Shown here: in pieces, positions 1 through 20,206 of the stretch
Layout: every line of letters begins with the position of its first letter
Position numbering within the stretch: position 1 is the first letter of the stretch
Source: a virus
DNA length: 30,298 nucleotides
IMG/VR virus record: IMGVR_UViG_3300023174_000487
Span: 1 to 30,298 of that record
Direction: 5' to 3' (one strand)
The notes under the pieces: generated by a model
Told to the model about the DNA's origin: nothing
Databases searched by the model: none
The model's input: the letters and a program-made list of their open reading frames with translations, nothing else
Translations under genes and position numbers: made by a program

Positions 1-643
1 AAGAAATAAAATCTTGGTAAGTCATTGTCTTTACATTGACATTTCTGCGCCATAATTCTGGTATGTTATGTTCTATTCCCACTGTATAAAAAGTTGTATT
101 TTTGTAGGTTTGTATGACTCTGTTAACATTTTTTTGCCAATTGGAGTTTATAGATGGGGTATCATTGTTATAACCTAGTAAAAAAATCTCTTGGTGTCCA
201 TCAAATGCCGCAAGGTAAACAGCATGGCTTAAATCATCAAGGCCCGGTTGATATGGTATAATATAAAACAATCCAGGATTAGTCAAACACACTGATGTAG
301 ACGAATAAACAATGTTGTCTTTTGCATAGTCCCTGGCATCGTTTATTTTTTCTCGATCTGTGACCACATAAAAATCTAGATTTAAATATTCATTGCTGTT
401 ACCAGTACCGTAAGTTTGCAAGCGTTTGGTGCCCAATAGGCCGCCCTGGTGATTTTTTAAATGTTTAAGATGAAACTGTGGAAGATCTGTGTCGCCGCTT
501 ATAACTGCGGCACGGCCACTGATGTGTTGGTTTGTTATGGGATTTTCCATCCACTCACGTTGCTCAACTTTTTTTCCATTTTGAAAAGTAGTTTTAATCA
601 AAATATGCTCGCCGTCATAATCTTGTCGATGTTTTTCTAACAT
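1..643 (-). CDS. DUF115-like Rossmann-fold protein, partial (3' end outside window)
   Basis: This frame is open from an ATG at 641-643 to the left edge: 214 codons are visible and there is no stop, so the C-terminus is missing. The ATG overlaps the stop of the upstream 711-residue fibre gene in a TAATG junction. GGGAG lies about 6 bases before the ATG, which fits translational coupling. The core begins near residue 44 with a beta strand and glycine turn (AAVISGDTD). It continues with an LKHLKNHQG helix, a strand LDFYVVTD, then GHQEIFLLGYN and NWQKNVNRVIQTY. The same order of motifs occurs in the 195-residue protein at 16204-16791 (HHKNIFLVGFD, NWVKQLTKVI), so the two look like paralogues. The fold resembles DUF115/MptE-like or sugar-transfer-associated Rossmann domains. 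That family call is from memory of motif shape, and no function is shown. The first ~40 residues are extra relative to the paralogue. Confidence 0.72.
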   Translation of the reverse strand, partial: MLEKHRQDYDGEHILIKTTFQNGKKVEQREWMENPITNQHISGRAAVISGDTDLPQFHLKHLKNHQGGLLGTKRLQTYGTGNSNEYLNLDFYVVTDREKINDARDYAKDNIVYSSTSVCLTNPGLFYIIPYQPGLDDLSHAVYLAAFDGHQEIFLLGYNNDTPSINSNWQKNVNRVIQTYKNTTFYTVGIEHNIPELWRRNVNVKTMTYQDFIS

Positions 644-2879: not shown

Positions 2880-5800
2880 TTAGTTACGACCAACAACAAC
2901 TTCAATTGTGCCTTCGGCACCATCAAAGTTCTCCAGGGCCTTGCCAATAATAGTACCAGCACGTGCCGCATTATCAACTCGGGCTGCACCGTTACCGGCT
3001 GCCACCAGCATGTCACCTTTGCGTACTGCGCCAACTACTCGACATGGTACACGACCTTGCAATGCTACCACAGCAACAAATTCACTCTCTAATCCCTCAT
3101 TCATTACAAATCCAGGATTAGTAGATATTACACCAGCAATTCTGCTTGTGCTATCTTCTGTAGCTTGTGTAACTTCTGCATCGCCACCAAACATAACCAC
3201 TGTACCAGGAGCATAATCAGCATCTGCTGTATACTTTTCTGCCAAGTCGGCGTATTGTGCTGTTGTTGCTTTGGCAAATACTGTGTTAAATGTAGCACCG
3301 GATGCACCAATGTTGCCAGCGCCGCTGGTGCCACCGTTGACAATAGCAGTTACGCCGTTAGACGAGTTCACTGTAATTGCACCACTCACTGTGAGTGCAG
3401 TCAATGTACCCACTGAAGTGATGTTGCCTTGTGCGGCAGTGGTCACGGTACCAGCTGTGGTTGCACTTGTTGCCGCACCACTCAATGTTGCAGTAATTGT
3501 ACCTGCACTAAAGTTACCGCTTGCGTCACGTGCAACAATTGCACTTGCTGTATTTGCGTTAGTAGCTGTTGAACCTAGAGTAACTGCACCACTCGACACA
3601 CTAGCAGTAATGCCGCCACCATTGGCCAAACTGGTAACACCAGTGTGCGTGTGATCTGCACGAGCGTAGCGTGTACTTGTACCAACAGTGTTGGTGCCAA
3701 TACTAGTTGGAGTTGTTGAGCTAGCCTGACCAATCACATACGCAGTAGTTGCCAATTGTGTTGTGTTTGTATCTGCTGCCGCTGTTGCCGAACTTGCGTT
3801 ACCACTTACAGCCAAGCTACCCAAAGTGCCCACTGATGTGATGTTGGTTTGTGACGCAGTGGTCAATGTTCCCACAATGCTGGTACCACTTAGGTTACCT
3901 GAAGTAATATTGCCGGTTACTGCCAAACTACCCAGGGTACCCACGGACGTCAAACTACTTGCAGTTACGCCACTAGCCAATGTTGCACCACTCAATGTAC
4001 CAGCCGGGGCAACAACTGCGGTTGTGCTAGCGGCTGTTAGCTGACCTTGTTGATTAACAGTGAAAGTTGGGATTGCTGTTGAGCTACCATAGCTGGTAGC
4101 AGTGACAGCAGTGTTACTAATACTAAACTGTGAACCGGTTAATGTTAATCCTGTACCAGCAGTGTATGTACCAGCACCAGAAAATTGTGTGAAGTCAATG
4201 GCATCAGTGCCAATAGTTGCCACAGTACTTGTTTGTACCCAACCAGTATTATCATACAATGTTCCAGCGGTTACAAATGTAAAGTCACCGGCTTCTATTT
4301 CAGGAACTGTGTTATAATCTGTTGCACGTGTTAATACTGTTGCACTTGTGCGAACATATATACCATTATTTGCGGCAGTTCCTTCGTTCTTGACAAGAAT
4401 ACGCATGCCATTTGACAATGTGACACCGTCAATGGTTGTGTATGTTCCTGTTGTGGTCAATGTTGCGCCAACTCCAGCTGTGCCGTTATTATATGTAACA
4501 GTACCGCCTGATATTGTTGCTAGTGTTGTGTTTGTAGCTGCACCGCAAGCGTCGTGTATGTTCAAGCCTTGTGAAACATCATCAACATATTGTTTTGTTG
4601 CGGCATCAGTTCCGTTGACCGGAGTAGCCAGACTAGTAATATTGAAGCTATTTAAGTTAACGTTACCACCAAATGAACCTGTACCAGATACTGCTAAACT
4701 ACTTAATGTACCCACCGAAGTGATGTTGGTCTGTGCGGCAGTAGTCAATGTACCTACAATGTTTGTGGCACCCAAGTTGCCCACGTTGGCATTGCCAGTG
4801 GCATTGAGGGTACCTGTAATATTAGCACCAGTTGTGGTTGCAATCAGCACATTGGTGCCGTTGGGTGCTAAGTTGACGTTGCCACTTGCACCTGTTATCA
4901 ATGATAGTGCGCCTGTATCAACAATATTGCCTGTTACAAGCAAATTGCCACCACTTACATTACCTGTTGCAACAACCTGACCAGCTGTGGTCAGGTTGCC
5001 ACCTGCAACGTTGGCTGTGACTGTCAGCGATCCCAAAGTGCCCACTGATGTGATGTTGGTTTGTGACGCAGTGGTCAATGTTCCCACAATGCTGGTACCA
5101 CTTAGGTTACCTGAAGTGATGTTGCCGGTTACTGCCAAACTACCTAAAGTGCCCACTGAAGTGATGTTGGTCTGTGCCGCTGTGGTCAATGTTCCCACAA
5201 TGTTAGTGGCACCCAAGTTACCAACGTTGGCATTGCCTGTGGCATTCAATGTGCCAGCAATGTTGGCACCTGTACTAGTTACAACCACAACGTTGGCTGT
5301 TGCTGCCGCGCTAACAGTCACGTTACCATTCAAGAATGTTCTAACGTTAGCACTACCATTTTGTATTGATGTAGCATCAATGCCTGTTAACTGACTACCA
5401 TTACCTAGAATGTAACTACCAGTTATGTTACCACTTGCACTTAGTGTGCCAGCAATGTTAGCGCCAGTAGTAGTAAACACAGCAACATTGCTTGCGCCAC
5501 CAACTGTGATGTTGGCATTGCCACTGGCTGTTTGAATATCAATACTGGTAGTACCGTTTTGTAGCCTGTCGCCCAAGATGTTACCACTCAGTGTAGCGTT
5601 ACCACTCACAGTCAAGTTGCCTGCAATGTCAACAAGTCCTGGGCTCACTGTCATGACTGTTACGCCGTTGACTGCTGTGACAACGTTGCCACCGCTAGAT
5701 ATCACGTCAACTTTAGAAGTACCGAAGCTGATCTTGTTTGCGGATACGTTCAAGTTGGTTATTCCACTACCATCGCCAGAAATTACGCCACCAGTGACCA

Positions 5801-8800
5801 CCAAGTTGCCAACAACATTGACGTTGGCCGCTGTGTCACTGGCAGTAACTGATGCTCCTGCAGCACCAACAAGTCCAGACACTGTTGATGTGGTGGTTAA
5901 GATTCTAAAATCAATGTAGTCTGTGGATTCAGGAGCTTCAGTAAATGTACACACATTGCCTGCAATACTGTAAGCTGTGGTTGGAATCTGAACCACACCG
6001 TTGATTGCAACAATTGTACTGGCAGTTGTGCTGTTTCCTGGCAGTGTAAATGCTGTCTGCACTCCGTTACCAACTTGTGTGTTGGCTGTGATGACAGTGA
6101 ATGTTGATCCAGCAGTTTCCCACGAGTCATTGTCGTAGAATTCCAGATTGTTAAGACTGGTGTTGAAACGCATCATACCTGTGACACCAGTTGCTGGCCG
6201 TTGTGCTGTGTTTCCAACTGGAAGTTTAATACTATTAACAGTGTTAAATGCCACAATGGAATTGGCAACTTGAGTGCTATTACCAAAGCTAGCTGTGCCA
6301 GTACCACCATCAGCATAGAATGTGTATCCGGTCAGGCTGTTTACAGCAAAATCAACGTCTTGAAGAGCGTCATTAATAAAAACATAGCCGCTTACGCCAG
6401 TAATGTTATTACCACTGATGCGAATATTGCCAAGACTGGCTAGACCAGCAGTTGTAATGTTGCCGCCAGTGATGTTGCCAGTCACTGATGCTAAACCTGC
6501 TGTGATTAAATTACCACCAGTGATGTTACCAGTGGCTGTTATCAACCCAGCAGTGCCCAGGTTACCCACATTGGCATTGCCTGTGGCACTTAATGTACCA
6601 CCTGTAACCAGGTTACCACCTGTAATGGTGCCAGTTGCTGTTATCAAACCAGCAGTGCTGATATTTCCATGTATGGCATTGCCAGTACTGCTCATAATAC
6701 CGGCTGTAATAACGTTACCACCAGTGATGTTACCTGTGGCTGTTACCACGCCACCAGTATTAATGTTACCACCAGTTAAGTTGCCAGTTGCAAGAACACC
6801 TGCACTGGTATTAACATTGCCAGTTGCTGTTATCAATCCAGCTGTGATTAAATTACCACCAGTGATGTTGCCTGTGGCTGTTATCAAGCCAGCAGTGGTA
6901 TAATTTCCTGCAGTTGAGTTCCCAGTAGCACTCATTATGCCAGCAGTTAAGATATTGCCACCAGTGATGTTACCAGTTGCTGTTACTACGCCAGCTGTGG
7001 TCAAGTTGCCGCCTGTGACGTTGGCTGTGGATGTAATGTTACCTGTGGCTGTTATCAAACCAGCAGTGCCCAAGTTACCCACATTGGCATTGCCTGTAGC
7101 ACTTAATGTACCACCTGTGATCAAGTTGCCACCAGTGATGTTACCAGTGACTGTGGCTAAACCAGCTGTGGTCAAATTGCCACCAGCAACGTTGGCTGTA
7201 GATGTAATGTTGCCTGTGGCTGTTATCAAGCCAGCAGTGCTGATATTTCCGTGTATGGCATTGCCAGTACTGCTCATAATACCGGCTGTAATAACGTTAC
7301 CACCAGTGATGTTACCAGTGGCTGTTACTACACCAGCTGTGGTCAAATTGCCACCTGTAACGTTACCAGTTGCAAGAACACCTGCACTGGTATTGACATT
7401 GCCAGTTGCTGTTATCAAGCCAGCAGTGCCCAAGTTACCCACATTGGCATTGCCAGTGGCACTTAGTGTGCCACCTGTGATTAAATTGCCACCAGTGATG
7501 TTGCCAGTTGCTGTTACTAAACCAGCTGTGTTTAAGTTGCCACCAGCAACGTTGGCTGTAGATGTAATGTTACCTGTGGCTGTTATCAAGCCAGCAGTGC
7601 CCAAGTTACCCACATTGGCATTGCCAGTGGCACTTAGTGTGCCACCTGTGATTAAATTGCCACCAGTTATTGTTCCTGTAGCTGTTACTACACCAGCTGT
7701 GTTTAAGTTGCCACCAGTAATGTTGCCAGTACTGCTCATAATACCAGCAGTTAAGATATTGCCACCAGCAACGTTGGCTGTAGATGTAATGTTACCTGTG
7801 GCTGTTATCAAGCCAGCAGTGCCCAGGTTGCCCACATTGGCATTGCCTGTGGCACTTAGTGTGCCACCAGTGATCAAGTTGCCACCTGTGATAGTGCCTG
7901 TGGCTGTTACTACAGCAGTGCCCAGGTTGCCCACATTGGCATTGCCTGTGGCACTTAGTGTACCACCTGTAACTAAGTTACCACCGGTAACATTGCCGGT
8001 AACGCTTAGGCTTGTACCGGTTGCCGCACCAATGTTTGGCGTGGTTAAGTTTGCGCTGGCTTTGACAATGACGTTGCCACCAGCATCAAATGCTGTAGTA
8101 TTGTTGTCAACTTTGGCAGAGAGTACAGTTCCGTTGATGCTGATACCATTACCAGCTGTGTATGTTTGTGAACTACTGAATTGAGCAAACGTAATACTGC
8201 TGGTACCAAAAGTGATAGTCCCACTTGGAGCATCAACAATCCAAGCACTGGCAGCATTGACACTTCCACCGCTGACAAAGAAATAATCATTGACACTTAG
8301 GTCAGTAGAACTGTTTGGCCCATATGTGTCTGCGTCTGTTGTTCTAGTGATAACAGTTGGACTTGTGTATTGATACACACCGTTCTGTGTGGCGTCAGCT
8401 TGGTTCTTGACAAGAATTCGTGTGCCAACTGTTTGTACGTTGGCAGTGTCAATTAAGTTGAATGTTCCTGTTGTTGTCAATGTTGCACCAACTCCAGCTG
8501 TGCCGTTGTTGTACGTAATAGTACCACCTGTGGCTGTGGCCAATGTGGTAGTTGTTGCTGCCAACACTGCTTGGTGATATGCTATTTGGGTCGACACCAT
8601 GTTGTCAACATAGATCTTGCTGGCAGCATCGTTGTCTTGTACAGGCTGATTTACGCCATTGATGTACTTGTTGTTTAATACAATGTTACCAGTTGGTTCT
8701 AAATTAAGGTTACCAACTGTGGTTTTAATAGTTAATGCGGCTGTGTTGTTAACACTCGAAGTGTTGACATTGCCACCGTTTACGTTGCCAGTGGCACTTA

Positions 8801-10922
8801 TTTGTCCACCAGTTGCAATGTTGCCACCAGTGACATTTCCTGACGCTGATATTGTGCTACCGCTTGTGATTGCACCAGATACAGATGCCAATCCAGCTGT
8901 GATTAAATTACCACCTGTTACGTTGGCAGTTGCTGATATTGTGCTACCGCTTGTGATTGCACCAGATACAGATGCCAATCCAGCTGTGATTAAATTACCA
9001 CCAGTGATGTTGCCAGTGACGCTTGCTGTACCACCTGTGGCCAAGTTGCCACCAGTTATTGTTCCTGTGGCACTTGCTGTACCAGCTGTGGCCAAGTTAC
9101 CACCAGTGATGTTGCCAGTGACGCTTGCTGTACCACCTGTGGCCAAGTTGCCACCAGTTATTGTTCCTGTGGCACTTGCTGTACCAGCTGTGGCCAAGTT
9201 ACCACCAGTGATGTTGCCACTAGCACTCACTGTTGCGGCAGTTACAGCACCTAAGGTAGTACCATCAGTTGATGTGACCGACAAAGTGTTGGCTGTTGTG
9301 GATTTTAACTGGACATTTCCTAGATAAATTGTAGCGCCACCAACATATAAGTCTTTCCACTGTGCTGTTGCGCTACCCAATGTGTATATTGCGTTGGCTG
9401 TGGGAAGAATATTACCAGTTGCGTTTACGTTTGCACCAGAAATGTTACCTGTTGCACTCATTTGTCCAGCTGTGATTAAGTTACCACCTGTGATGTTACC
9501 TGTGGCACTTGCTGTACCACCTGTGGCCAAGTTGCCACCAGTTATTGTTCCAGTTGCTGTTACTACACCGGCTGTGGTCAAATTGCCACCAGAGATGTTA
9601 CCAGTTGCTGTTATCAATCCAGCAGTGCCCAGGTTACCCACATTGGCATTGCCTGTGGCACTTAATGTACCACCTGTGATCAAGTTGCCACCAGTGATGT
9701 TACCTGTAGCTGTTACCACACCGGCAGTACTAATGTTACCGCCAGTAACGTTACCAGTTGCAAGAACACCTGCACTGGTATTGACATTGCCAGTTGCTGT
9801 TATCAAACCAGCAGTGCTGATATTTCCATGTATGGCATTGCCAGTACTGCTCATAATACCGGCTGTAATAACGTTGCCGCCAGTGATGTTGCCAGTTGCT
9901 GTTACTACGCCAGCTGTGGTATAATTTCCTGCAGTTGAGTTACCAGTAGCACTCATTATGCCGGCTGTAATAATATTGCCGCCAGTGATGTTACCAGTGA
10001 CTGTGGCTAAACCTGCTGTGATTAAATTACCACCGGTGATGTTGCCAGTTGCTACTACCTGAGCACCTGTATTAATATTGCCACCAGAGATGTTACCAGT
10101 TGCTGTTATCAATCCAGCAGTGCCCAAGTTGCCCACATTGGCATTGCCAGTGGCACTCAGTGTGCCGCCTGTGGCCAAGTTACCGCCAGTTATGGTGGCA
10201 GTTGCGGATATCAACCCACCTGTCAGTACATTGCCACCTGTGACGTTGCCACTCGCGCTGACTGTTGTGCTTTGAACTGTTGCTAGATTAGCAATGCCAA
10301 CAGTTGTGATATTGCCACCGGTGATGTTGCCAGTTGCACTTAAAATTGCAGCCTGGAATGTACCTGCTGTGGCGATGTTGCCACCAGTGATGTTGCCTGT
10401 GGCGCTGATTAATCCGGGAATCAACAGATTTCCACCAGCAATGTTGCCAGTTACATTTAAATTCCCAGTAACATTACCAGTAAAAGCTGTGGTGCCCGTG
10501 ACTGCTAAATTCCCAGTCACTGCCGCATTTAATGTTCGGAAACTGGCATAGCTGTTTATTGTGACTGTGGTATTTGTGACCACGTCATTGGTAAATGCTG
10601 TTACAAATTCAGTTTGACTTTCTTTCCAAACAAACGCAATGTTTGTTGATGTTCCGCGTTCGCCCAGGAAACCTATGTCCAAGGCCGGTGCGCCAGTTTG
10701 ATTACTGGCCAAGATAATAATTGGATCTTCAACCTGGAGATTGTAGGTGTCAATATTGGTAACATTACCATTGACCACCAAGTTTCCAGTAACAGTTAAG
10801 TCTGAACCATAGGTTAAATTGTTTGCAATTTTACCTGCGGTGATTGAATAATCTTGCAATTTTGAACTTGCAACGATTGTTGAATCGGTGATTTGATTAT
10901 TTTTAATTCGTGTAACAGCCAT
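2880..10922 (-). CDS. Giant repeat fibre/adhesin-like structural protein (2680 aa)
   Basis: This is the longest gene in the window, and a probable virion fibre or surface appendage. Residues 1-150 (MAVTRIKNNQITDSTIV, LTVTGNLVVNGN, VEDPIIILASN) form an N-terminal module also found in the 211-residue protein. A first block of ~31 units of a 17-residue repeat follows (TGNITGGN plus nine residues such as LITAGLVTA). Then come a fibre module (nt ~8105-8655) and a second block of ~40 units ending near nt 6420. An ERP/RFNT plus nGVxQxP module (nt ~5895-6235) follows, then further units, a second fibre module (nt ~4100-4620) and an RYARADHTHTG element. The C-terminal YADLAEKY domain is shared with the 711-residue fibre. 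The repeats should stack as a beta-helix or beta-roll (inference). The ATG has AGGAG 8 bases upstream, and the tandem terminator follows the stop. The repeats are easily mis-assembled, so unit number is uncertain. Confidence 0.88.
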   Translation of the reverse strand: MAVTRIKNNQITDSTIVASSKLQDYSITAGKIANNLTYGSDLTVTGNLVVNGNVTNIDTYNLQVEDPIIILASNQTGAPALDIGFLGERGTSTNIAFVWKESQTEFVTAFTNDVVTNTTVTINSYASFRTLNAAVTGNLAVTGTTAFTGNVTGNLNVTGNIAGGNLLIPGLISATGNITGGNIATAGTFQAAILSATGNITGGNITTVGIANLATVQSTTVSASGNVTGGNVLTGGLISATATITGGNLATGGTLSATGNANVGNLGTAGLITATGNISGGNINTGAQVVATGNITGGNLITAGLATVTGNITGGNIITAGIMSATGNSTAGNYTTAGVVTATGNITGGNVITAGIMSSTGNAIHGNISTAGLITATGNVNTSAGVLATGNVTGGNISTAGVVTATGNITGGNLITGGTLSATGNANVGNLGTAGLITATGNISGGNLTTAGVVTATGTITGGNLATGGTASATGNITGGNLITAGQMSATGNISGANVNATGNILPTANAIYTLGSATAQWKDLYVGGATIYLGNVQLKSTTANTLSVTSTDGTTLGAVTAATVSASGNITGGNLATAGTASATGTITGGNLATGGTASVTGNITGGNLATAGTASATGTITGGNLATGGTASVTGNITGGNLITAGLASVSGAITSGSTISATANVTGGNLITAGLASVSGAITSGSTISASGNVTGGNIATGGQISATGNVNGGNVNTSSVNNTAALTIKTTVGNLNLEPTGNIVLNNKYINGVNQPVQDNDAASKIYVDNMVSTQIAYHQAVLAATTTTLATATGGTITYNNGTAGVGATLTTTGTFNLIDTANVQTVGTRILVKNQADATQNGVYQYTSPTVITRTTDADTYGPNSSTDLSVNDYFFVSGGSVNAASAWIVDAPSGTITFGTSSITFAQFSSSQTYTAGNGISINGTVLSAKVDNNTTAFDAGGNVIVKASANLTTPNIGAATGTSLSVTGNVTGGNLVTGGTLSATGNANVGNLGTAVVTATGTITGGNLITGGTLSATGNANVGNLGTAGLITATGNITSTANVAGGNILTAGIMSSTGNITGGNLNTAGVVTATGTITGGNLITGGTLSATGNANVGNLGTAGLITATGNITSTANVAGGNLNTAGLVTATGNITGGNLITGGTLSATGNANVGNLGTAGLITATGNVNTSAGVLATGNVTGGNLTTAGVVTATGNITGGNVITAGIMSSTGNAIHGNISTAGLITATGNITSTANVAGGNLTTAGLATVTGNITGGNLITGGTLSATGNANVGNLGTAGLITATGNITSTANVTGGNLTTAGVVTATGNITGGNILTAGIMSATGNSTAGNYTTAGLITATGNITGGNLITAGLITATGNVNTSAGVLATGNLTGGNINTGGVVTATGNITGGNVITAGIMSSTGNAIHGNISTAGLITATGTITGGNLVTGGTLSATGNANVGNLGTAGLITATGNITGGNLITAGLASVTGNITGGNITTAGLASLGNIRISGNNITGVSGYVFINDALQDVDFAVNSLTGYTFYADGGTGTASFGNSTQVANSIVAFNTVNSIKLPVGNTAQRPATGVTGMMRFNTSLNNLEFYDNDSWETAGSTFTVITANTQVGNGVQTAFTLPGNSTTASTIVAINGVVQIPTTAYSIAGNVCTFTEAPESTDYIDFRILTTTSTVSGLVGAAGASVTASDTAANVNVVGNLVVTGGVISGDGSGITNLNVSANKISFGTSKVDVISSGGNVVTAVNGVTVMTVSPGLVDIAGNLTVSGNATLSGNILGDRLQNGTTSIDIQTASGNANITVGGASNVAVFTTTGANIAGTLSASGNITGSYILGNGSQLTGIDATSIQNGSANVRTFLNGNVTVSAAATANVVVVTSTGANIAGTLNATGNANVGNLGATNIVGTLTTAAQTNITSVGTLGSLAVTGNITSGNLSGTSIVGTLTTASQTNITSVGTLGSLTVTANVAGGNLTTAGQVVATGNVSGGNLLVTGNIVDTGALSLITGASGNVNLAPNGTNVLIATTTGANITGTLNATGNANVGNLGATNIVGTLTTAAQTNITSVGTLSSLAVSGTGSFGGNVNLNSFNITSLATPVNGTDAATKQYVDDVSQGLNIHDACGAATNTTLATISGGTVTYNNGTAGVGATLTTTGTYTTIDGVTLSNGMRILVKNEGTAANNGIYVRTSATVLTRATDYNTVPEIEAGDFTFVTAGTLYDNTGWVQTSTVATIGTDAIDFTQFSGAGTYTAGTGLTLTGSQFSISNTAVTATSYGSSTAIPTFTVNQQGQLTAASTTAVVAPAGTLSGATLASGVTASSLTSVGTLGSLAVTGNITSGNLSGTSIVGTLTTASQTNITSVGTLGSLAVSGNASSATAAADTNTTQLATTAYVIGQASSTTPTSIGTNTVGTSTRYARADHTHTGVTSLANGGGITASVSSGAVTLGSTATNANTASAIVARDASGNFSAGTITATLSGAATSATTAGTVTTAAQGNITSVGTLTALTVSGAITVNSSNGVTAIVNGGTSGAGNIGASGATFNTVFAKATTAQYADLAEKYTADADYAPGTVVMFGGDAEVTQATEDSTSRIAGVISTNPGFVMNEGLESEFVAVVALQGRVPCRVVGAVRKGDMLVAAGNGAARVDNAARAGTIIGKALENFDGAEGTIEVVVGRN
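8845..9002 (-). repeat. 87-bp-period direct repeat
   Basis: The stretch starting GCTGATATTGTGCTACC at 8845 recurs at 8932. About 71 bases are identical, through GATTAAATTACCACC. It encodes two copies of a unit with an AITSGSTISA spacer and preserves the frame (29 codons). This looks like a recent duplication. Confidence 0.85.
8995..9219 (-). repeat. Exact 102-bp tandem duplication
   Basis: Bases 9001-9102 and 9103-9204 are identical over all 102 bases. A partial third copy continues to about 9219. The period equals two 51-bp units (34 residues), so the frame is kept. Exact identity among otherwise diverged units points to very recent slippage or unequal recombination, or to an assembly effect. 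Confidence 0.92.
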
Positions 10923-10930
10923 GATTGGGT

Positions 10931-10952
10931 CTCCTACATCTATTTATGTAGG
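10931..10952 (-). promoter_or_regulatory. Late-promoter-like box inside a hairpin that overlaps the SD of the giant gene
   Basis: CCTACAT (10933-10939) pairs with ATGTAGG (10946-10952) around a 6-base loop. On the minus strand the loop and one arm read CATAAATA (10941-10948), a 7 of 8 match to the T4 late box. The SD AGGAG (10931-10935) of the giant gene shares three bases with the stem. Transcripts starting upstream could therefore fold over the SD, while transcripts starting at this box would lack the first arm. Confidence 0.5.
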
Positions 10953-10977
10953 ATCCAAAATATCGAGAACTGGGTAG

Positions 10978-12237
10978 TTAAGTACTGATTGTGGCACCCA
11001 ATGCCACACGTTTCCAGGCGCCGCCGCTGTAAACTGCCAAACAAGGGTTACCACTGTCCCCGTTGGACACATAAATCACCTGTCCTGCTGCCACATTTCC
11101 CAGGGCAGAAGCTTGACTCACAGTGTACGTTGGCAATTGTAAACTGTGTGTGTTTGTGATATTTACCACACCTGGCACAGTAATTGTCAGTTCCTGCCCC
11201 GATGCATTGGTGACCGCATTGATGGTGTTGAGTATTGTGGTAAATCTAATGTCAATCACATCACTTGATTCTGGTGCTTCGGCAAATGTTATCAAGTTTC
11301 CGGCAACAGTGTATGCAACATCAGGAAATTGTACCACACCGTTGGTGCTGACAATGATGGACGCAGAAGTAGTTGTTTGATTCAGTGTGAAAACTGTGTT
11401 ACTGCCATCACCAGTGATGTACTGATTGGTAATTAGAGCAGTACCACCAACACTGGTCCACTGAGTGCCGTCCCAAACTTCTACGTCTGTTGAATTTGTA
11501 TTAAAACGTATAGTTCCAGTGGCCGGACTTGCTGGGCGTTGCACTGTATTTCCAGTGGGCAATACTAACCCAGTTATGGTATCAATTGTAACAAATCCGT
11601 TGCCAGTTGGCTCTAAAATAATGTCACCGTTGGCCTGATTTGTTGTAATCGTGGTGTTGGCAATTAATATATTGCCAATTGTGGTGTTTCCCGGTAAATT
11701 TGTGGTTCCAATCAAGCCTGAATACTGATATCCTGCCACATAAACAACATTGCCGGCGGTGAGCGATGTGGGAATAGTTTCGCCGATGAAGTTTAAAACC
11801 CCGGCTTGCGTATCAAAGTAATATTCCCCAACCCCGCCAATACCAGCAGAAAATATCTGTGTACCAGTTGATTCAATGTTGGCATCACCGCTCGGTCCAA
11901 CAAATACTTTTGGCAGCCATGTAGATCCAAATTCTTGTGGTATCCAGTAAGTCTTGTTGGTTAGCCAAGTGGGTCTAATACCGCCAATGGGTGGCACTGT
12001 GGTATCAGGAGCACACTCAATGGCTCCACTGTTTCTATAAGCAGTGGTAATGCCAGCAATTGCCTGGGCAGTGTTTCCAATTTGATCGGACTGTACCCAT
12101 ACAACATCACCACGCAACAACGGTGGGCTAGCAATGCTTTCGTTAGATGCGCCTTTGACTGTGCTGTTGGCTGTTTTTGCAACACCTTGTAGCTTTTTAA
12201 ACAGTAGGTCAACGTATTGTGCTATTGTAACTGCCAT
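10978..12237 (-). CDS. Structural/appendage protein (419 aa) with RFNT and nGVvQfP modules
   Basis: This is a probable virion appendage component. Residues ~1-30 (MAVTIAQYVDLLFKKLQGVA) look helical. Residues ~40-190 form a Trp- and Gly-rich globular region (GDVVWVQSDQIG, PTWLTNKTYWIPQEFG, GEYYFDTQAGVLNF). After a short ILEPTGNG stretch comes the module PTGNTVQRPASPATGTIRFN, then GDGSNTVFTLNQ, STNGVVQFPDVAY and EAPESSDVIDIRF. The same module is in the 2680-residue and 132-residue proteins. The C-terminus (VIYVSNGDSGNPCLAVYSGG, WKRVALG) looks like a small beta domain. The ATG overlaps the stop of the 861-residue gene (TAATG) with only a weak SD, so translation is probably coupled. The giant repeat gene follows 55 bases downstream. 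I cannot assign a precise position in the virion. Confidence 0.82.
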   Translation of the reverse strand: MAVTIAQYVDLLFKKLQGVAKTANSTVKGASNESIASPPLLRGDVVWVQSDQIGNTAQAIAGITTAYRNSGAIECAPDTTVPPIGGIRPTWLTNKTYWIPQEFGSTWLPKVFVGPSGDANIESTGTQIFSAGIGGVGEYYFDTQAGVLNFIGETIPTSLTAGNVVYVAGYQYSGLIGTTNLPGNTTIGNILIANTTITTNQANGDIILEPTGNGFVTIDTITGLVLPTGNTVQRPASPATGTIRFNTNSTDVEVWDGTQWTSVGGTALITNQYITGDGSNTVFTLNQTTTSASIIVSTNGVVQFPDVAYTVAGNLITFAEAPESSDVIDIRFTTILNTINAVTNASGQELTITVPGVVNITNTHSLQLPTYTVSQASALGNVAAGQVIYVSNGDSGNPCLAVYSGGAWKRVALGATIST

Positions 12238-14822
12238 TAGTTGCTCGCCGCGTTAATTGATAAAGCCGACACTGTCTGGCCTGACGTTAGGGCAACCCTG
12301 ACGTAAATTTCGTTTGTTGCTGTGCTGGAACTACTCACTGTGCCAAACGTACAAGTTCTGTTAATTGCACTGGCTTGGTTGACGTTGACTGGAACAACCC
12401 CGCCTAGACTACATCCATCACTGCCGTTGCCCGGCGCATTAACTCCGGGGTATCCAGCTCCACCATAAGCAGTTGCCATGTTGATCCACCCGTTGGCACT
12501 GGAACTTGAATCTATCACTGACCCTGGCAATGCTACCCACATACCAGCCACATTTCCCGAATAAGTTATGTCAAATTTTGAAACGTTTGTTCTCACAAAC
12601 TTGAATGTAAAGTATTGTGTGCCTGTACGACCCGAACTCAGGTTTGGTCCAGCAGGCAAATACCCAGTTGAGTAATTGGTTTGATCATGTTTGAGTACTC
12701 CAGCTGATCCTGATCCAACCACTGTGGCATCGTATGTTTGTAAAGTGCTGGTTTGGCTGTTAAATGCTGCCTCACTGCCAGTATATGTTGGAGTATTTGC
12801 TGAGCCAGGATTGATAATTCTGTATGCATTACCGGATCCAGTACCAACACCGGTGACAATGACATTGCCTTCGTCGATGGCTGTGGAATTTCCATTTTTG
12901 TAAAGCACAGTTGCTGCCAGCGCAGTTGTAAATGCCTGCGATGCTGAATTATAACTGTTGGTAACTGTCACACTTGGTCCAGTTGTGCTAGAGCCAAATC
13001 CACTAGCAACAATATTAGCTGTGGTATTTCCTGTTGCAGTGCCCGAACTTACGTACAAGTTGCGTGTCAATGGTACAGTGACATTGGCAGCGGCGTAAGT
13101 CACGCTGGCTGGTGCTTGGAATGCGCCGCCTGCGGCTGTTGAGTTGGTCAACAAGTTGCCGTTATTTGGATACAAATCTCCAGACAGTTTGTTTACACTA
13201 AATCCAAAGCCAAATTGTGTTCCTGAATTGTAGTGCGGAATTGTGCTAGAATAAGTTAGGCTAGGACTGGCGCTGGCTGTTACACTGGCATTTGAAAATA
13301 CTGGTGTTCCTGGAGCAGCCGCATCATAGTACCAGTTTGGAGTATTTGTATTGCCGGCAGCAGAATCAGATAGATACACCTCGTTCCAGCCTTGGGTAAC
13401 TGCACCGCTGGCCCGAGATGAAAACACATACCAAAATCCTGCGGCAATGTTTGCATTGGCTGTGTTATAATCGTAATTGTTGGTTACAACCAAGTTACTG
13501 TATGTGCCGTTTGCAGTAGGGCTTGCTCCGGTATTAAATGCTACATTTCCTGCACCTGTGCCATTGAGATAAACAGTTAGTGTTCCTGAATCACCAGGGC
13601 CAGTATTAGAAATTGTGTTGGTTGTGTAAGCACTACCTCGTACCACTGACACCACAGTTCCGGCCGCCACTGCTTTGTTGGCGCCTGGGGTATTGTCAGT
13701 TTGCACAAAGTTACACATGCGACCCGATGAAGTTGCTGTGGTAATTGAAAGTGTTGTGCTGTTTGGAAAATTGGGTGGGCTAGGGGGTACTAGTTTACCC
13801 AGCACTGTGTTTAATTGTGTAATACCGTCGGTCACTGATGTACTCGTTGTTAGTGTTACTGCGTTACTGACAAGATTGCCAAGAGAGTTGGTTCCCATGG
13901 AAACAGTGTTGCCCAATACTCCAGCAATGGCATTGCCAGCAGTCCAAGAGACATTTCCAAATCCGTCAGTGGTGAGAACATAGTTTGCAGATCCGCCAGT
14001 GAGTTTGACGTTGGCGTTTGATCCCAGATCAAGTATGCCAGATGCTGCCGAGATAGCATTGGCCGACAAGGTCACACTGTTGCCGGTGATATTTCCTGAC
14101 GCACTTACTACACCAGTGACATATTCTCCTGTTGAGGCAAACACCACAACATTGCTGGTGCCAGTGATACCAACTGACACATTTCCGTTGGCTGCTACTC
14201 GTACGTTTGAATTGCCGTTTTGTATAGATGTGGCATCAATACCGGTGAGCTGGCTACCATTACCAAATATATAATTGCCCGAAACATTGCCGGTGGCACT
14301 GACAATACCACCAGTGATCACGTTACCGCCCGCAATGTTGGCTGTGGCAGATATTGATCCGCCAGTGGTTACGTTGCCACCTATGATGTTGCCAGTGGCA
14401 GATATTGATCCAGATGAGCGTATATTTCCGCCTTGAACATTGGCTGGAGTTGTGATATTACCAAAAGAAAATACTATTCCACTAGTGACAAGGTTGGCAG
14501 CCGAAATGTTGGATGTACTTGTGATATTGCCAATGGCTGTTATCAAACCATTGGTGGTGATATTACCACCAATTACATTGCCTGTAGTAGTTACTTCGCC
14601 AACTGTGACAAGATTTCCGCCAATTACGTTGCCAGTGACACTCAAACTGGTGGAAATAATCGCATTACCGTTAACAGTCAATGTAGAAGTAGTTGAGCTA
14701 GTGTTTACACCAATACGAGTATTGACAACATCTACAAAAAATAAATTTCCTTGAATCGCGAGATTAGATCCTCGCTGTAGGTTATCCTGTAGTATATTGC
14801 CAGATATTTTGTTTATGGTCAT
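12237..14822 (-). CDS. Fibre-like structural protein (861 aa) with repeat N-half and globular C-half
   Basis: The first 40 residues (MTINKISGNILQDNLQRGSN, LAIQGNLFFVDVVNTRIGVN) are a fibre-start module. They are followed by about ten TGNVIGGN-type units to residue ~180. A module then runs from YIFGNGSQLTGIDATSIQNG to FASTGEYVTGVVSASGNITG, which has close copies in the 2680- and 711-residue proteins. From residue ~360 the sequence changes to a Ser/Thr/Tyr/Asn-rich beta-type region (MCNFVQTDNTPGANK, GFWYVFSSRASG, NEVYLSDSAAG, WYYDAAAPGTPVF) with no repeat. It ends in a probable receptor-binding or lectin-like part (FKFVRTNVSKFDITYSGNV, WVALPG). The receptor idea is inference from domain position only. 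The SD is weak. It lies 22 bases after the 132-residue gene, and its stop overlaps the next start. Confidence 0.82.
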   Translation of the reverse strand: MTINKISGNILQDNLQRGSNLAIQGNLFFVDVVNTRIGVNTSSTTSTLTVNGNAIISTSLSVTGNVIGGNLVTVGEVTTTGNVIGGNITTNGLITAIGNITSTSNISAANLVTSGIVFSFGNITTPANVQGGNIRSSGSISATGNIIGGNVTTGGSISATANIAGGNVITGGIVSATGNVSGNYIFGNGSQLTGIDATSIQNGNSNVRVAANGNVSVGITGTSNVVVFASTGEYVTGVVSASGNITGNSVTLSANAISAASGILDLGSNANVKLTGGSANYVLTTDGFGNVSWTAGNAIAGVLGNTVSMGTNSLGNLVSNAVTLTTSTSVTDGITQLNTVLGKLVPPSPPNFPNSTTLSITTATSSGRMCNFVQTDNTPGANKAVAAGTVVSVVRGSAYTTNTISNTGPGDSGTLTVYLNGTGAGNVAFNTGASPTANGTYSNLVVTNNYDYNTANANIAAGFWYVFSSRASGAVTQGWNEVYLSDSAAGNTNTPNWYYDAAAPGTPVFSNASVTASASPSLTYSSTIPHYNSGTQFGFGFSVNKLSGDLYPNNGNLLTNSTAAGGAFQAPASVTYAAANVTVPLTRNLYVSSGTATGNTTANIVASGFGSSTTGPSVTVTNSYNSASQAFTTALAATVLYKNGNSTAIDEGNVIVTGVGTGSGNAYRIINPGSANTPTYTGSEAAFNSQTSTLQTYDATVVGSGSAGVLKHDQTNYSTGYLPAGPNLSSGRTGTQYFTFKFVRTNVSKFDITYSGNVAGMWVALPGSVIDSSSSANGWINMATAYGGAGYPGVNAPGNGSDGCSLGGVVPVNVNQASAINRTCTFGTVSSSSTATNEIYVRVALTSGQTVSALSINAASN

Positions 14823-14844
14823 GTTTGATCTTTAGAGGTGGCGA

Positions 14845-15243
14845 TTATGTACTTGAATGTATCACTGATATTGGTTCCCCGTCTGGCGGTGGTGATGTAA
14901 ATGTTATATCATATCCTCCATTGACAGTGTAGGCCGATGTCGAGTCTTGATATATTGATCCAATGAAAACCATTATCTGTGAAGGTGAGCTTTCTTCCAC
15001 GCTCATGGTAAACACTTGTGTGGTACCATCGCCGGTAAAACTATCAACTATGTAATTAAGTGTGCCGGCTTGACCTAATTCAGCCCAGACCATACCATTG
15101 AAAAATTCAATTGCTGCCAGGTCTGTGTTGTACCTAATCATGCCAAATTTAGGCGCAAGAGGTCGAACAGCTGATCCGCCGGCGGGAAGTACTACCCCGC
15201 TGGATCCTGATTGCAAAATTCGATTTTTAACGAAATATCCCAT
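14845..15243 (-). CDS. Small structural protein (132 aa), stand-alone RFNT/nGV module
   Basis: Nearly the whole protein is the module seen inside the 419- and 2680-residue proteins. It reads LPAGGSAVRPLAPKFGMIRY, then EFFNGMVWAEL, GDGTTQVFTMS, MVFIGSIYQDSTSAYTVNGG and FTSPPPDGEPISV. It probably forms a beta-sandwich at the base or joint of a fibre; the position is inferred, not shown. The ATG directly follows the TAA of the 104-residue gene with no spacing and no clear SD, so coupled translation is likely. The sequence is ordinary in composition and complete. Confidence 0.8.
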   Translation of the reverse strand: MGYFVKNRILQSGSSGVVLPAGGSAVRPLAPKFGMIRYNTDLAAIEFFNGMVWAELGQAGTLNYIVDSFTGDGTTQVFTMSVEESSPSQIMVFIGSIYQDSTSAYTVNGGYDITFTSPPPDGEPISVIHSST

Positions 15244-15558
15244 TTATAATGTAGTATAACTAGTCACTGTGGCAATGGCTGAATTGCCACTGGCCAGTAA
15301 TTGAATAGAGTCTCCGGTATTCAGTAGTAGTTTTTCGCCACCAGCATAGAGTTGATAAGTGTCATAGGCAGTTATTTCTAAGCCGGCCAGTATGATGTTG
15401 GTATTACCTGCGATATTACCAAATGGCACAACGTAAACGTTTACAAAGACATTTCCGGCGGTGTAATTACAAATACTACAAAAAGTAACCGCAGTGTTGC
15501 TACTACTAGTATAAACCGACGATGTGGTGGTTGATGCGCTTGCTGTTGAAATTGGCAT
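15244..15558 (-). CDS. Small beta-rich structural protein (104 aa)
   Basis: A Ser/Thr-rich start (MPISTASASTTTSSVYTSSS) leads into alternating beta strands (VFVNVYVVPFGNIAGNTNI, YQLYAGGEKLLLNTGDSIQL). GEKLLLNTGDSI is typical of small phage head or tail decoration proteins found in aquatic T4-like phages, by motif shape only. The SD AAGGAAAC precedes the ATG. Nine bases separate it from the 211-residue gene, and its stop abuts the next ATG. It lies in the middle of the fibre run, which suggests a tail or fibre accessory role. Confidence 0.72.
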   Translation of the reverse strand: MPISTASASTTTSSVYTSSSNTAVTFCSICNYTAGNVFVNVYVVPFGNIAGNTNIILAGLEITAYDTYQLYAGGEKLLLNTGDSIQLLASGNSAIATVTSYTTL

Positions 15559-15567
15559 TATGTTTCC

Positions 15568-16203
15568 TTACAATATAAGAGCAAAAACAATTGCTTTTGC
15601 CCGACTAACTAATTCATCTTGCACCGTGGCGCTCTTGACATATAGTCCAGTGCCGCCGACTCCTTCAGCATTGTGATATACGCTGACTGCATTGGCAGTT
15701 ATGGCTGGTGATGTTCCGATGTTACCAAACGCTTGATGTCCTTGCACCAGAACTTTGCTGGTGGAAAAATCAAACGTTAAATTTGCATTTGCTCCAAGTG
15801 TGCCGCTGTTGTTGAAAATGACCTGGGTGTTGCTGCCTGGTGCTGGCACATTGCTTATGTTGCCGATTGCAATGTTACTCCAGGTGCCAGTTGTGCCTGA
15901 ATTACCAGTGCTTGAACTTACTTGCCAGACCCCAGTGGTGTTGTTCCATCGTAACCCAGCATAATCACTGGACGTTTTATGAACCAACATGCCCGAATTG
16001 CTTTCATAACTGCCAGTGTTGCTGGAGTTAAGCAAGATAAACGGATCTTTGACATTGAGTTCAGTTACGTTGATGTAGGTTAAGTTTCCTGTTACATCAA
16101 GGTTACCTTGTATTTTTACAGTGTTAGTGTCAATTATTACATTGTCAGATGAGTTGATGCTGATAATAGAATAATCGCCATCGATACGTTTATAAGTGCT
16201 CAT
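15568..16203 (-). CDS. Structural protein (211 aa) with fibre N-terminal module
   Basis: Residues ~30-120 (VKIQGNLDVTGNLTYINVTE, LNVKDPFILLNSSNTGS, MLVHKTSSDYAGLRWN) match the N-terminal module of the 2680-residue protein (LVVNGN, LQVEDPIIILASNQTG, ERGTSTNIAFVWKE). This is a head-of-fibre domain that probably anchors or registers the shaft. The C-terminus (VSVYHNAEGVGGTGLYVKSA, DELVSRAKAIVFALIL) forms a second small domain and ends in a hydrophobic strand. The ATG abuts the TGA of the DUF115-like gene, and AAGGAT upstream serves as SD. It is probably co-transcribed with the following structural genes. Confidence 0.8.
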   Translation of the reverse strand: MSTYKRIDGDYSIISINSSDNVIIDTNTVKIQGNLDVTGNLTYINVTELNVKDPFILLNSSNTGSYESNSGMLVHKTSSDYAGLRWNNTTGVWQVSSSTGNSGTTGTWSNIAIGNISNVPAPGSNTQVIFNNSGTLGANANLTFDFSTSKVLVQGHQAFGNIGTSPAITANAVSVYHNAEGVGGTGLYVKSATVQDELVSRAKAIVFALIL

Positions 16204-16791
16204 TCAAAGATCCTTTGTGTTATTTATTAGGTTTAAGAAGTCTTTCAAACACAAAGTTTTGTAATTTATTAGTTTGTTTAGGTCAGGTTGATCAGATGTG
16301 GTGTTGCCTATTACTCGAGTAAAAGTTTGATGTGGATTGTCAGAGATGACTTTTGTCAACTGTTTGACCCAGTTGCCGGTGAATGTGGGAGTGGCGCCAA
16401 CTTGTTTGTAAAATTCTGTACCAGCATAAACATTGTTGAATTTGCCATCAGTGGTGGGACCTAGATCAAACCCCACAAGAAAGATATTTTTGTGATGATC
16501 AACAGTTGATGCAATTGCCACTGCTATTGGGCCACTACTATAACCAAAGTACAATTTTGGAACAGCTTGTGCCCCTTGTCCGGGCAAAGGTCTCCTGGTA
16601 AAAAATCGATGTTGTTTGCTGTAACCCGACTGCTGTATTGTGGTGCTAATTGGCTGATCTGTGCTGACTAACACATCTGGAGTAAATGTCCGATAAATGG
16701 CGTTGCATCCGTACACAGTACCCAGGGTTTTTAGTTTGTTTACATCCACTGATTCTCTGCTTATGCCGTTGCCTAGCACAAATGCTGTCAT
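16204..16791 (-). CDS. DUF115-like Rossmann-fold protein (195 aa)
   Basis: The protein starts with a Rossmann-type strand-loop (AFVLGNGISRESVD). It continues LKTLGTVYGCNAIYR and TPDVLVSTDQPI, then HHKNIFLVGFDLGP and NWVKQLTKVISDN, ending LCLKDFLNLIN. The order of a glycine loop, GCNAIYR, PDxLVxxD and a late xIFLVGFD strand matches the DUF115/MptE-like group. Members of that group are linked to glycan or pterin chemistry, and the group assignment is inference. It is a paralogue of the partial protein at the left edge. No signal peptide or membrane segment is seen, so it acts in the cytoplasm or in the virion. SD GGGAGG is strong but lies inside a terminator-like stem (16798-16823). Its TGA directly abuts the next ATG. 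Confidence 0.75.
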   Translation of the reverse strand: MTAFVLGNGISRESVDVNKLKTLGTVYGCNAIYRTFTPDVLVSTDQPISTTIQQSGYSKQHRFFTRRPLPGQGAQAVPKLYFGYSSGPIAVAIASTVDHHKNIFLVGFDLGPTTDGKFNNVYAGTEFYKQVGATPTFTGNWVKQLTKVISDNPHQTFTRVIGNTTSDQPDLNKLINYKTLCLKDFLNLINNTKDL

Positions 16792-16823
16792 AAAAAATCC
16801 TCCCTGTTATGTATCAGGGAGGA
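16792..16823 (-). terminator. Terminator/attenuator hairpin containing the SD of the next gene
   Basis: TCCTCCCTG (16798-16806) and CAGGGAGGA (16815-16823) form a perfect 9-bp stem with an 8-base loop. On the minus strand, T6 (16797-16792) and then the ATG at 16791 follow at once. It has the form of a rho-independent terminator for the 172-residue gene. The GGGAGG in its second arm is the only SD for the DUF115-like gene. It may lower both transcription and translation of everything downstream. Confidence 0.75.
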
Positions 16824-16842
16824 CGTCAGGGGCAAATAGAAA

Positions 16843-17361
16843 TTAGCTGGTGTAATTTTCTGCAATTGCCAATGCGTTTGTAGCACCAGTTGTACCAGAC
16901 TTGATCTCAGTGCCTTCGTCTGAGAAGAAGTTGATTACATAACGAACTGGGGGTGTAGAATAGTCCAGTGCCCATTTGTTTGTAAGTTTGCTGATTAGAA
17001 TGTCAGTACTGTCGCCATTGAACATGGCAATGTTCATGTTGCCAGGTGACAAGTTACCTGTGGTTTCATTGGCCAACGTAGCTTGGTATGTATTTCCACT
17101 GGATTGACCTAACACCAAATATGTGGTGGTTCCTTTTTGGCGCAGGATAATGGCAGCTTCTTCACTGCCGCCAATTTCGCATGCTTGAGCGCGAACCACA
17201 GGATAAGCTGACGTAGCTACACTGGTGTTTTCACCGCCGACAACACCCAGGTACTGAGCTGCATCTAGTGTTGCTGGATATACTGGATTTGTTAAACTAC
17301 CAAGGTTGTTAAAACCAATGTCTTTGGTAGTAGATTTTTTAATTTTTAGTGGGCGACCCAT
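16843..17361 (-). CDS. Virion-associated hypothetical protein (172 aa)
   Basis: The basic N-terminus MGRPLKIKKSTTKDIGFNN is typical of small structural proteins in aquatic T4-like phages. It is followed by beta-rich sequence (AQYLGVVGGENTSVATSAYP, EEAAIILRQKGTTTYLVLGQ, NMNIAMFNGDSTDILISKL). It ends NALAIAENYTS. No catalytic motif is seen. The protein may decorate the capsid or tail, but I cannot choose between these. AGGAG precedes the ATG, and a CTAAATA box lies about 90 bases upstream. The gene is first in its unit, and a terminator-like hairpin follows the stop. Its separation from the rest by that hairpin suggests it is made in larger amounts than the genes behind it. Confidence 0.72.
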   Translation of the reverse strand: MGRPLKIKKSTTKDIGFNNLGSLTNPVYPATLDAAQYLGVVGGENTSVATSAYPVVRAQACEIGGSEEAAIILRQKGTTTYLVLGQSSGNTYQATLANETTGNLSPGNMNIAMFNGDSTDILISKLTNKWALDYSTPPVRYVINFFSDEGTEIKSGTTGATNALAIAENYTS

Positions 17362-17452
17362 TTGATTTCTCCTAATAGAAGTCCGATGCGGGTTCTAGCC
17401 GCTACGCTGTTGGGTTTAGTCATCAGCATAAAACACCATGTTGTGTTATTAT

Positions 17453-17460
17453 TATTTAGT
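17453..17460 (-). promoter_or_regulatory. Candidate late promoter box for the 172-aa gene / fibre run
   Basis: The minus strand reads ACTAAATAATAATAAC, a 6 of 8 match to TATAAATA and the same CTAAATA core as at 2799. It lies in the 101-base divergent gap (17362-17462) and would give a leader of ~85 bases. It nearly touches the start of the plus-strand glycosyltransferase gene. I see no convincing plus-strand promoter in this gap. Confidence 0.4.
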
Positions 17461-17462
17461 CA

Positions 17463-18635
17463 ATGCAAACACAATTAAATACCAGTATGAAATCAGACGA
17501 CTTAGTAGATCAAGGAAATCAGCTCCGAGCTGACAGAAAACCCCATGAAGCACTGGCAGTGTATGCACAAGCATTTGTGCAAGACAGAAAACATGTTTCA
17601 GCTTTTAACAACTACGGAAACGTGCTACGTGAAATAGGAGACCCTGCCGGTGGTATTCCATTCTTGGAACATGCATTGACCATGTACCCTGACTTTGTCA
17701 CAGCAAAGTTCAATCTTGCTGTGTGTCACTTGCTGTTGGGAAATTATGAAAAAGGTTGGCCAGCTTATGAAGCAAGATGGCAATACGAGCATCTTGCTGG
17801 AACCTTGCCTGCTTTTTCGCAGCCTAGGTGGGAAGGCGAGGATCTAAAAGACAAAACCATATTGGTTGTGGGTGAACAGGGCCATGGAGACAACATACAA
17901 TTTTCAAGATTTATTTTTAATCTACATACTGCGGGTGCCAAAGTAATTTTTCAAGTCACTCAAGGTTTGATCCCTATGTTTGCTTCCAGCAGTATAATAT
18001 CACGTGTGTGCGGATATGACGAAGATCCTGGAGAATTTGACTACTGGGTACCCATCATGAGCATTCCTCGGGTACTGGGCATTACATTAAAAAATTTACC
18101 TAGAATGTTGAGTTACCTGGGTGCTGATCGAAATCTAACTGCCGAATGGAATAAACGACTTTTTCCCAAGACTAAAATAAGACTTGGCTTGTGTTGGAGT
18201 GGGCGCAGAGATTCTTGGCTAAATCAACACAAAAGTATTCCATTTGATCAAGTGTTAGAGTTTGTGGCACAACATCCTGAATTTACCTGGGTAAACTTGC
18301 AGGCTGATTGCACCAAAGAAGAAGAACTTGCATTAACCGAATTGGGTGTGTTGTCATTTCCCGGAGAAATCAACAGCTTTGCAGATACAGCGGCGTTGCT
18401 CATGACCTTGGATGCTGTGATGGCTGTGGACACTGCTGTGGCACACCTTGCTGGCAGCCTAGGAGTTCCCACATGGTTAATGTTAAATCAATATGCTGTG
18501 GACTGGCGTTGGTTGTTGGAAAAAAACTCAAGTCCTTGGTATCAAAGTGCTGTGCTGTTCCGACAGGACAGCATGGATGATTGGCAGTCAGTGTTTAATA
18601 AAATCTACAAACACTTAAAACTGTTGAAGATTTAA
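17463..18635 (+). CDS. TPR-containing GT-B glycosyltransferase (GT9/GT41-like, 390 aa)
   Basis: Residues ~14-110 contain about three TPR units (GNQLRADRKPHEALAVYAQA, NNYGNVLREIGDPAGGIPFL, FNLAVCHLLLGNYEKGWPAY). A GT-B type domain follows. Its first half opens with TILVVGEQGHGDNIQFSRF at ~132. Its second half has IRLGLCWSGRRDSW near residue 240, then MAVDTAVAHLAGSLGVPTWL and DWRWLLEKNSSPWYQSAVLF (~320-375). This layout is that of bacterial TPR-O-GlcNAc-transferase-like and heptosyltransferase-like proteins, which transfer sugars from nucleotide donors. Acceptor and donor are unknown. No signal peptide is seen, so it is cytoplasmic. It is one of only two plus-strand genes in the window. Met9 (17487) is an alternative start; neither start has a good SD. 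It probably glycosylates phage proteins or host glycans, and the fibre genes next door are an attractive target. Confidence 0.85.
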   Translation: MQTQLNTSMKSDDLVDQGNQLRADRKPHEALAVYAQAFVQDRKHVSAFNNYGNVLREIGDPAGGIPFLEHALTMYPDFVTAKFNLAVCHLLLGNYEKGWPAYEARWQYEHLAGTLPAFSQPRWEGEDLKDKTILVVGEQGHGDNIQFSRFIFNLHTAGAKVIFQVTQGLIPMFASSSIISRVCGYDEDPGEFDYWVPIMSIPRVLGITLKNLPRMLSYLGADRNLTAEWNKRLFPKTKIRLGLCWSGRRDSWLNQHKSIPFDQVLEFVAQHPEFTWVNLQADCTKEEELALTELGVLSFPGEINSFADTAALLMTLDAVMAVDTAVAHLAGSLGVPTWLMLNQYAVDWRWLLEKNSSPWYQSAVLFRQDSMDDWQSVFNKIYKHLKLLKI

Positions 18636-20162: not shown

Positions 20163-20175
20163 AATGATACTTATA

Positions 20176-20206
20176 GTGAAAACCACCCCTGGGGGTGGTT
20201 TTTCAC
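20176..20206 (-). terminator. Long hairpin terminator between two minus-strand units
   Basis: AACCACCCC (20181-20189) pairs with GGGGTGGTT (20192-20200). The pairing extends outward through GTGAAA/TTTCAC with one bulge. On the minus strand the stem is followed by a run of T. It starts inside the stop codon of the small acidic gene and lies just before the methyltransferase start. The arms are A/T-flanked on both sides, so it may work in both directions. Confidence 0.8.

Follow-up and report, generated by a model that had tools for sequence, protein, structure and literature searches.

A TPR–GT9-type glycosyltransferase gene kept beside fibre and capsid genes in large T4-like phages, with a possible role in virion glycosylation

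The window considered here is an uncultured virus record of 30.3 kb (30,298 nucleotides), which represents a contig of a T4-like phage. The gp20 portal is present (Pfam match, E 5.3e-103), and gp23 is closest, among isolates, to that of two jumbo phages, Vibrio 2.275.O and Pseudomonas PA5oct-like (65–66% identity). The virion genes occupy the minus strand, while a glycosyltransferase gene, flanked by p172 and p221, runs on the plus strand. Two paralogues with a Maf/sialyltransferase fold (2–643 and 16204–16791, both minus) flank the fibre block. Additionally, a large protein encoded at 27064–30297 (minus) carries tandem LPDEFNKLVELSKSNQQPV repeats close to its C-terminus. The features of the locus are as follows.

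2..643, minus strand: paralogue of g195, 214 aa, 28% identical to g195 and reaching the window edge
643..2778, minus strand: 711-aa fibre with a shorter ladder, C-terminal region common with the giant fibre
2880..10922, minus strand: giant fibre, 2680 aa, with a TGN(I/V)TGGN ladder
10978..12237, minus strand: 419-aa virion-associated protein, between fibres
12237..14822, minus strand: 861-aa fibre (phrog_8578), ladder confined to the N-terminal part
16204..16791, minus strand: g195, 195 aa, conserved partner gene; predicted Maf / GT42-sialyltransferase / MptE fold
16843..17361, minus strand: p172, 172 aa, function not assigned, divergent neighbour of the glycosyltransferase and candidate acceptor
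17463–18635, plus strand: glycosyltransferase open reading frame as listed, 390 aa
17475..17481, plus strand: T4-late-type box TTAAATA, 5 bases 5' of the likely glycosyltransferase start codon
17487..18635, plus strand: TPR–GT9-like glycosyltransferase, 382 aa when counted from the probable start codon
18632..19297, minus strand: p221, 221 aa, adjoining the glycosyltransferase, start behind TTAAATA-N4-ATG
19305–20186, minus strand: MTS/PrmC-like methyltransferase (phrog_35227), between the glycosyltransferase region and gp23; a relative stands at the equivalent place in a related locus (L077)
21117..22334, minus strand: gp23 major capsid protein (Pfam Gp23, E 1.6e-99)

The plus-strand gene at 17463–18635 encodes a TPR domain joined to a GT-B-type domain, as an earlier note on this DNA had read it. 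In the 390-aa numbering, the TPR helices span residues 9–109 approximately (Pfam TPR_16, E 4.6e-8 in the window protein) and the GT-B catalytic half about 125–390. The GT9 family PF01075 matches the window protein weakly (16 bits against a curated cut-off of 22) but is found in all 29 family members scanned at E 0.01, with a best E of 8.4e-9, while none of the 29 matched a GT41 family in Pfam at the same threshold. An AlphaFold2 model built from the family alignment (pLDDT 86) consists of a TPR bundle of helices and a catalytic half of alpha/beta type. By VIA-align, residues 125–390 of this predicted model superimpose on the GT9 enzymes 3tov (Z 19.2 over 248 residues), WaaC (Z 18.0), WaaF (Z 17.9) and TibC (Z 16.9), the overlap for the first three being 236–248 residues; as modelled, the catalytic half is a GT9 fold. 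Three elements are invariant in the 29 members, namely D143 of GEQGHGD, K257, and D323-T324-x3-H328, and their sequence resembles active-site motifs; D143 and D323/T324/H328 are presumably the equivalents of WaaC residues.

The earlier note had placed the enzyme near the GT41 family and its HMW1C-type N-glycosyltransferases, and neither the family matches nor the GT9-like fold (Z 17–19) supports this kinship; membership of GT41/HMW1C was rejected on the family matches. The enzyme shares an N-terminal TPR domain with OGT (GT41), whereas its catalytic domain groups with GT9 and no sequon dependence was seen. In Foldseek searches, OGT and SPINDLY rank high for the enzyme model; whole-chain alignments to OGT have an rmsd of about 14–15 Å, hence the GT41 catalytic domain was not cleanly compared. 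HMW1C does not appear among the fold matches listed, which by itself excludes nothing. Compared with the TibC and BAHT heptosyltransferases, the GT9-type catalytic fold is alike, and TibC has a known protein acceptor, but the phage enzyme lacks both the iron finger and the N-terminal beta-barrel of these proteins and has TPR in their place. Its four cysteines (88, 183, 244 and 283) include no invariant position, a TibC-type four-Cys iron finger is absent from the family by Cys positions, and the N-terminal region is a helical TPR in the predicted model.

The start codon and the promoter context were also compared among relatives. In 36 of 37 relatives, the glycosyltransferase starts with ATG or GTG 4–5 bases behind [GT]TAAATA, and in the remaining one the spacing is a single base; the window equivalent of this [GT]TAAATA-N4/5-ATG/GTG arrangement is TTAAATACCAGTATG. 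Because of this arrangement, and since residues 1–9 of the model have a pLDDT below 50, the true start is probably at 17487, giving 382 aa. The intergenic region between p172 and the glycosyltransferase contains [CA]TAAATA towards p172 and TAAATA towards the glycosyltransferase in 64/64 loci, and TTGACA in 38. The exact T4 late promoter TATAAATA does not occur in the window, and the looser TAAATA form was used as the late-type box. In T4, late transcripts begin some five bases past the box; with the box placed at the start codon, the glycosyltransferase message could therefore begin on the AUG and be leaderless. Judged by these motifs, the context suggests late expression of the enzyme, together with the virion genes. 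The sigma-70-like TTGACA and the strand opposite to the virion genes make early expression possible as well. The gene for p221 (start 19297, minus) has the same arrangement of a TAAATA box before its start.

The neighbouring g195, to which the earlier note had given no description, was modelled by AlphaFold2 with a pLDDT of 89. The model aligns with Maf (5mu5) at Z 12.7 over 166 residues (3.6 Å) and with Cst-I/CstII (2p2v, 1ro7) at Z 10.0, both Maf and Cst standing above unrelated entries. Weak matches to the MptE-like Pfam family occur in 10 of 28 g195 members, and weak matches to CST-I sialyltransferase models are also found among them; no clear sequence family was found for g195 or for its paralogue at 2–643. 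The members have the motifs GNG-x-S, YGCN and SSG...GFD. CstII requires a conserved catalytic His. In the g195 family no alignment column has His in more than 17 of the 28 members, and GT42-type catalysis is therefore not assured. In short, the fold is like that of Maf and the GT42 sialyltransferases, whereas g195 is a single small domain with no family-wide His. On the strength of its model, g195 is probably a second sugar-transferring enzyme beside the fibre and capsid genes. Pelagibacter phage HTVC008M has a relative of g195, with genes for a carbamoyltransferase and an oxygenase close by.

A search of IMG/VR returned 179 stretches that match the enzyme, the best 80 of which are 58–63% identical. 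Among these 80 virus loci, many of them short contigs, p172 adjoins the enzyme in 74, gp23 is present in 70 and g195 in 69. Furthermore, a ladder fibre was present in all 23 enzyme loci whose fibre-side flank measures 6 kb or more. Isolated phages (INPHARED) gave only distant matches, at best 25–26% identical, two of which have a tail-fibre or capsid gene close by. The earlier note had set the TPR glycosyltransferase among virion genes, and its conservation next to genes for fibres, the capsid and other virion components is borne out, in a promoter context that suits virion modification. Large T4-like phages do carry a sugar-transfer cassette next to their fibre and capsid genes. In the literature searched for a phage TPR–GT9 enzyme, leaderless T4 late genes and phage structural-protein glycosylation, nothing was found.

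Bacterial homologues, collected by plasmid and phylum searches, match the TPR and glycosyltransferase domains over their full length at 32–36% identity (Azospirillum, Burkholderia and others). Of 249 Pseudomonadota species genomes sampled, 62 contain such homologues, frequently in several copies. Compared with them, the phage proteins are compact (382–390 aa), sit in a virion locus, and are 58–63% identical to that of the window in the members fetched. The enzyme is a phage branch of a TPR-glycosyltransferase family that is widespread in bacteria and whose members, as met here, have annotation-level names only. One plasmid-borne homologue has a flagellin gene a few kb away; none was found beside the other bacterial homologues, for which the flanks of about 1.5 kb are uninformative. 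Some Azospirillum plasmids carry several homologues per replicon, and the examples seen have genes of glycan type in the vicinity, FkbM methyltransferase among them.

The fibres are the proteins proposed earlier as acceptors. The giant fibre repeats units such as SATGNITGGNLITAGLI at a fixed phase and contains 103 N-x-S/T sequons, where shuffles of the same protein that preserve its composition give 75.3 +/- 7.0. The corresponding values are 25 against 13.8 +/- 3.0 for the 711-aa fibre and 24 against 25.4 +/- 4.4 for the 861-aa fibre, which is chance level; the earlier note had ascribed the sequon pattern to both smaller fibres, and an excess is seen in the first and none in the second. Likewise, the statement that most units of the giant fibre carry a sequon agrees with 44 of 72 T/S-G-N sites, while the second sequon said to be present in many units was found at only 8 of 46 GGN sites. 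Nor does the enzyme adjoin the giant fibre as had been stated, seven genes and about 6.5 kb lying in between; the distance to a ladder fibre is shorter in many relatives, at about 1.5 kb.

Several comparisons address the sequons as targets of the enzyme. In the window, Ser/Thr stands at +2 in 13 of 15 ladder units without Asn, against 35 of 51 units with Asn. In loci that bear the enzyme the fractions are 0.51 against 0.59, and in those that lack it 0.53 against 0.63, with no significant difference in any of the three sets, the P values serving as a guide only because ladder units are related. Records bearing a ladder were then picked by the ladder DNA pattern alone and searched for the enzyme, which was found in 14 of 46 among the matches listed. 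Some of the 32 records without it are fragments, but they include records of 328 and 345 kb in which the locus is the same and the enzyme gene alone is missing next to p172; their gp23 is 84% and 96–100% identical to that of the window, and g195 is retained in enzyme-minus records. Among the ladder records listed, sequons per 100 aa amount to 4.20 with the enzyme and 4.08 without, and sequons at TGN sites to 0.58 and 0.53; for the large records the sequon densities are 4.38 and 4.27. The Ser/Thr content of the ladder fibres is likewise equal with and without the enzyme (T 15–17%). The proposed co-occurrence is consequently one-sided, the enzyme implying a ladder and the ladder not implying the enzyme. 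Since the same locus and ladders occur without the enzyme, the ladder neither needs nor reflects it. The sequon ladder as an acceptor code was rejected on the control with non-Asn units and on the enzyme-minus comparison. The Asn ladder would instead belong to a structural repeat, in which sequons look like a by-product; this alternative, raised in the earlier note itself, fits best.

The reading that we tentatively prefer, and which falls somewhat short of being probable, is that of a soluble cytoplasmic TPR–GT9 protein O-glycosyltransferase that acts on a virion surface protein with host nucleotide sugars. The TPR groove would bind a virion surface protein made simultaneously, either a fibre or the divergent p172, and the GT9 domain would, ahead of assembly, transfer a single sugar to Ser/Thr hydroxyls from a nucleotide sugar that the host makes, while the neighbouring Maf-fold protein may extend or prime the same glycan. 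We infer the activity, the acceptor and its location on the virion, and the donor from the features of the enzyme and its locus. A host-made donor is suggested since the donor-sugar genes NeuB (PF03102) and SIS_2 (PF13580) were found in none of 19 large phage records, in a search in which the controls were detected. Caulobacter FlmG, likened here by description, has the same order of TPR then GT-B, is cytoplasmic, and acts in the mode proposed, its TPR domain binding flagellins and its GT-B domain glycosylating them (PMC7591256); it differs in its length (596 aa), its cellular origin, its flagellin acceptor and its use of pseudaminic acid (PMC7591256). In addition, TibC, which has the same fold, is an O-heptosyltransferase for Ser in a beta-helical adhesin (PMC4358343). 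Protein O-glycosylation is suggested by analogy, because FlmG and TibC carry it out.

A virion acceptor is consistent with the TPR and GT9 domains, the conserved locus, the late-type box and the ladder fibre in 23/23 loci. Against it stand the absence of the enzyme from close relatives, the unchanged Ser/Thr content of the fibres, the lack of a donor gene, the strand opposite to the virion genes and the frequent TTGACA box; the best-known GT9 enzymes, moreover, act on LPS. As close relatives keep fibres, g195 and p172 without the enzyme, no protein of the locus depends on it. A wider proposal, held with low confidence, is that TPR–GT9 and the Maf-fold protein form a two-enzyme O-glycosylation cassette that would decorate jumbo T4-like virions on their outside with sugars taken from the host, gain and loss of TPR–GT9 between close relatives acting as a switch of surface chemistry.

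The main rival, somewhat unlikely in our estimation, places the target on the host: in the infected cell the enzyme would modify a surface glycan or a protein of the bacterium (LPS core, flagellin or pilin), for instance to block superinfection or to assist progeny release, the virion locus being a convenient insertion site. The nearest solved folds, WaaC and WaaF, work on the LPS core, bacterial homologues are plentiful and one lies near a flagellin gene, the sigma-70-like box permits expression ahead of the late genes, and the gene comes and goes while the fibres stay unchanged. Conversely, every relative examined has the late-type box at its start codon, the TPR module points to a protein acceptor, and the place beside p172 is kept in 74 of 80 loci. 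Locus and promoter therefore favour a virion acceptor, and the LPS-type fold together with free gain and loss favours one on the host surface.

A quite improbable sub-case of the preferred virion reading is O-glycosylation of Ser/Thr in the ladder fibres, as by TibC on TibA/AIDA-I. It would accord with the shared catalytic fold, the substrate of TibC being a Ser-bearing beta-helical adhesin, with the Thr-rich ladders, and with the enzyme implying a ladder; however, ladders without the enzyme have equal Ser/Thr content, TibC uses Ser and not Thr (PMC4358343), and its iron finger and beta-barrel are absent here. Action on DNA or a small molecule is very improbable: T4-like phages are known to use DNA glycosyltransferases, but the TPR domain, GT9 fold and virion-gene locus would not suggest a DNA acceptor. 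Finally, HMW1C/GT41-like N-glycosylation of the N-x-S/T ladder, for which the sequon excess in two fibres, the one-way link from enzyme to ladder and the OGT-like TPR domain could be cited, is hardly credible given +2 Ser/Thr as frequent in units without Asn, equal sequon density with and without the enzyme, the many ladder records listed without it (32/46), and the uniform GT9 assignment.

Phage-encoded glycosyltransferases act on virion proteins in mycobacteriophages, according to Freeman et al. (2023), as cited in PMC12619734. These phages are different from the present group and are likened to it by function, not by enzyme family. Should virion proteins prove to be the target, T4-like virion glycosylation would mark a large group of uncultured environmental phages. 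As a discrete gene that is missing in close relatives, the enzyme would then offer a clean test of virion sugars in adsorption and particle stability. The N-x-S/T ladders of TGN-repeat fibres are not to be taken for glycosylation sites. The 711- and 2680-aa fibres are alike over roughly 150 aa in their C-terminal regions (AQYADLAE...GRVPC...), and this shared segment may be a chaperone or an autocleavage domain.
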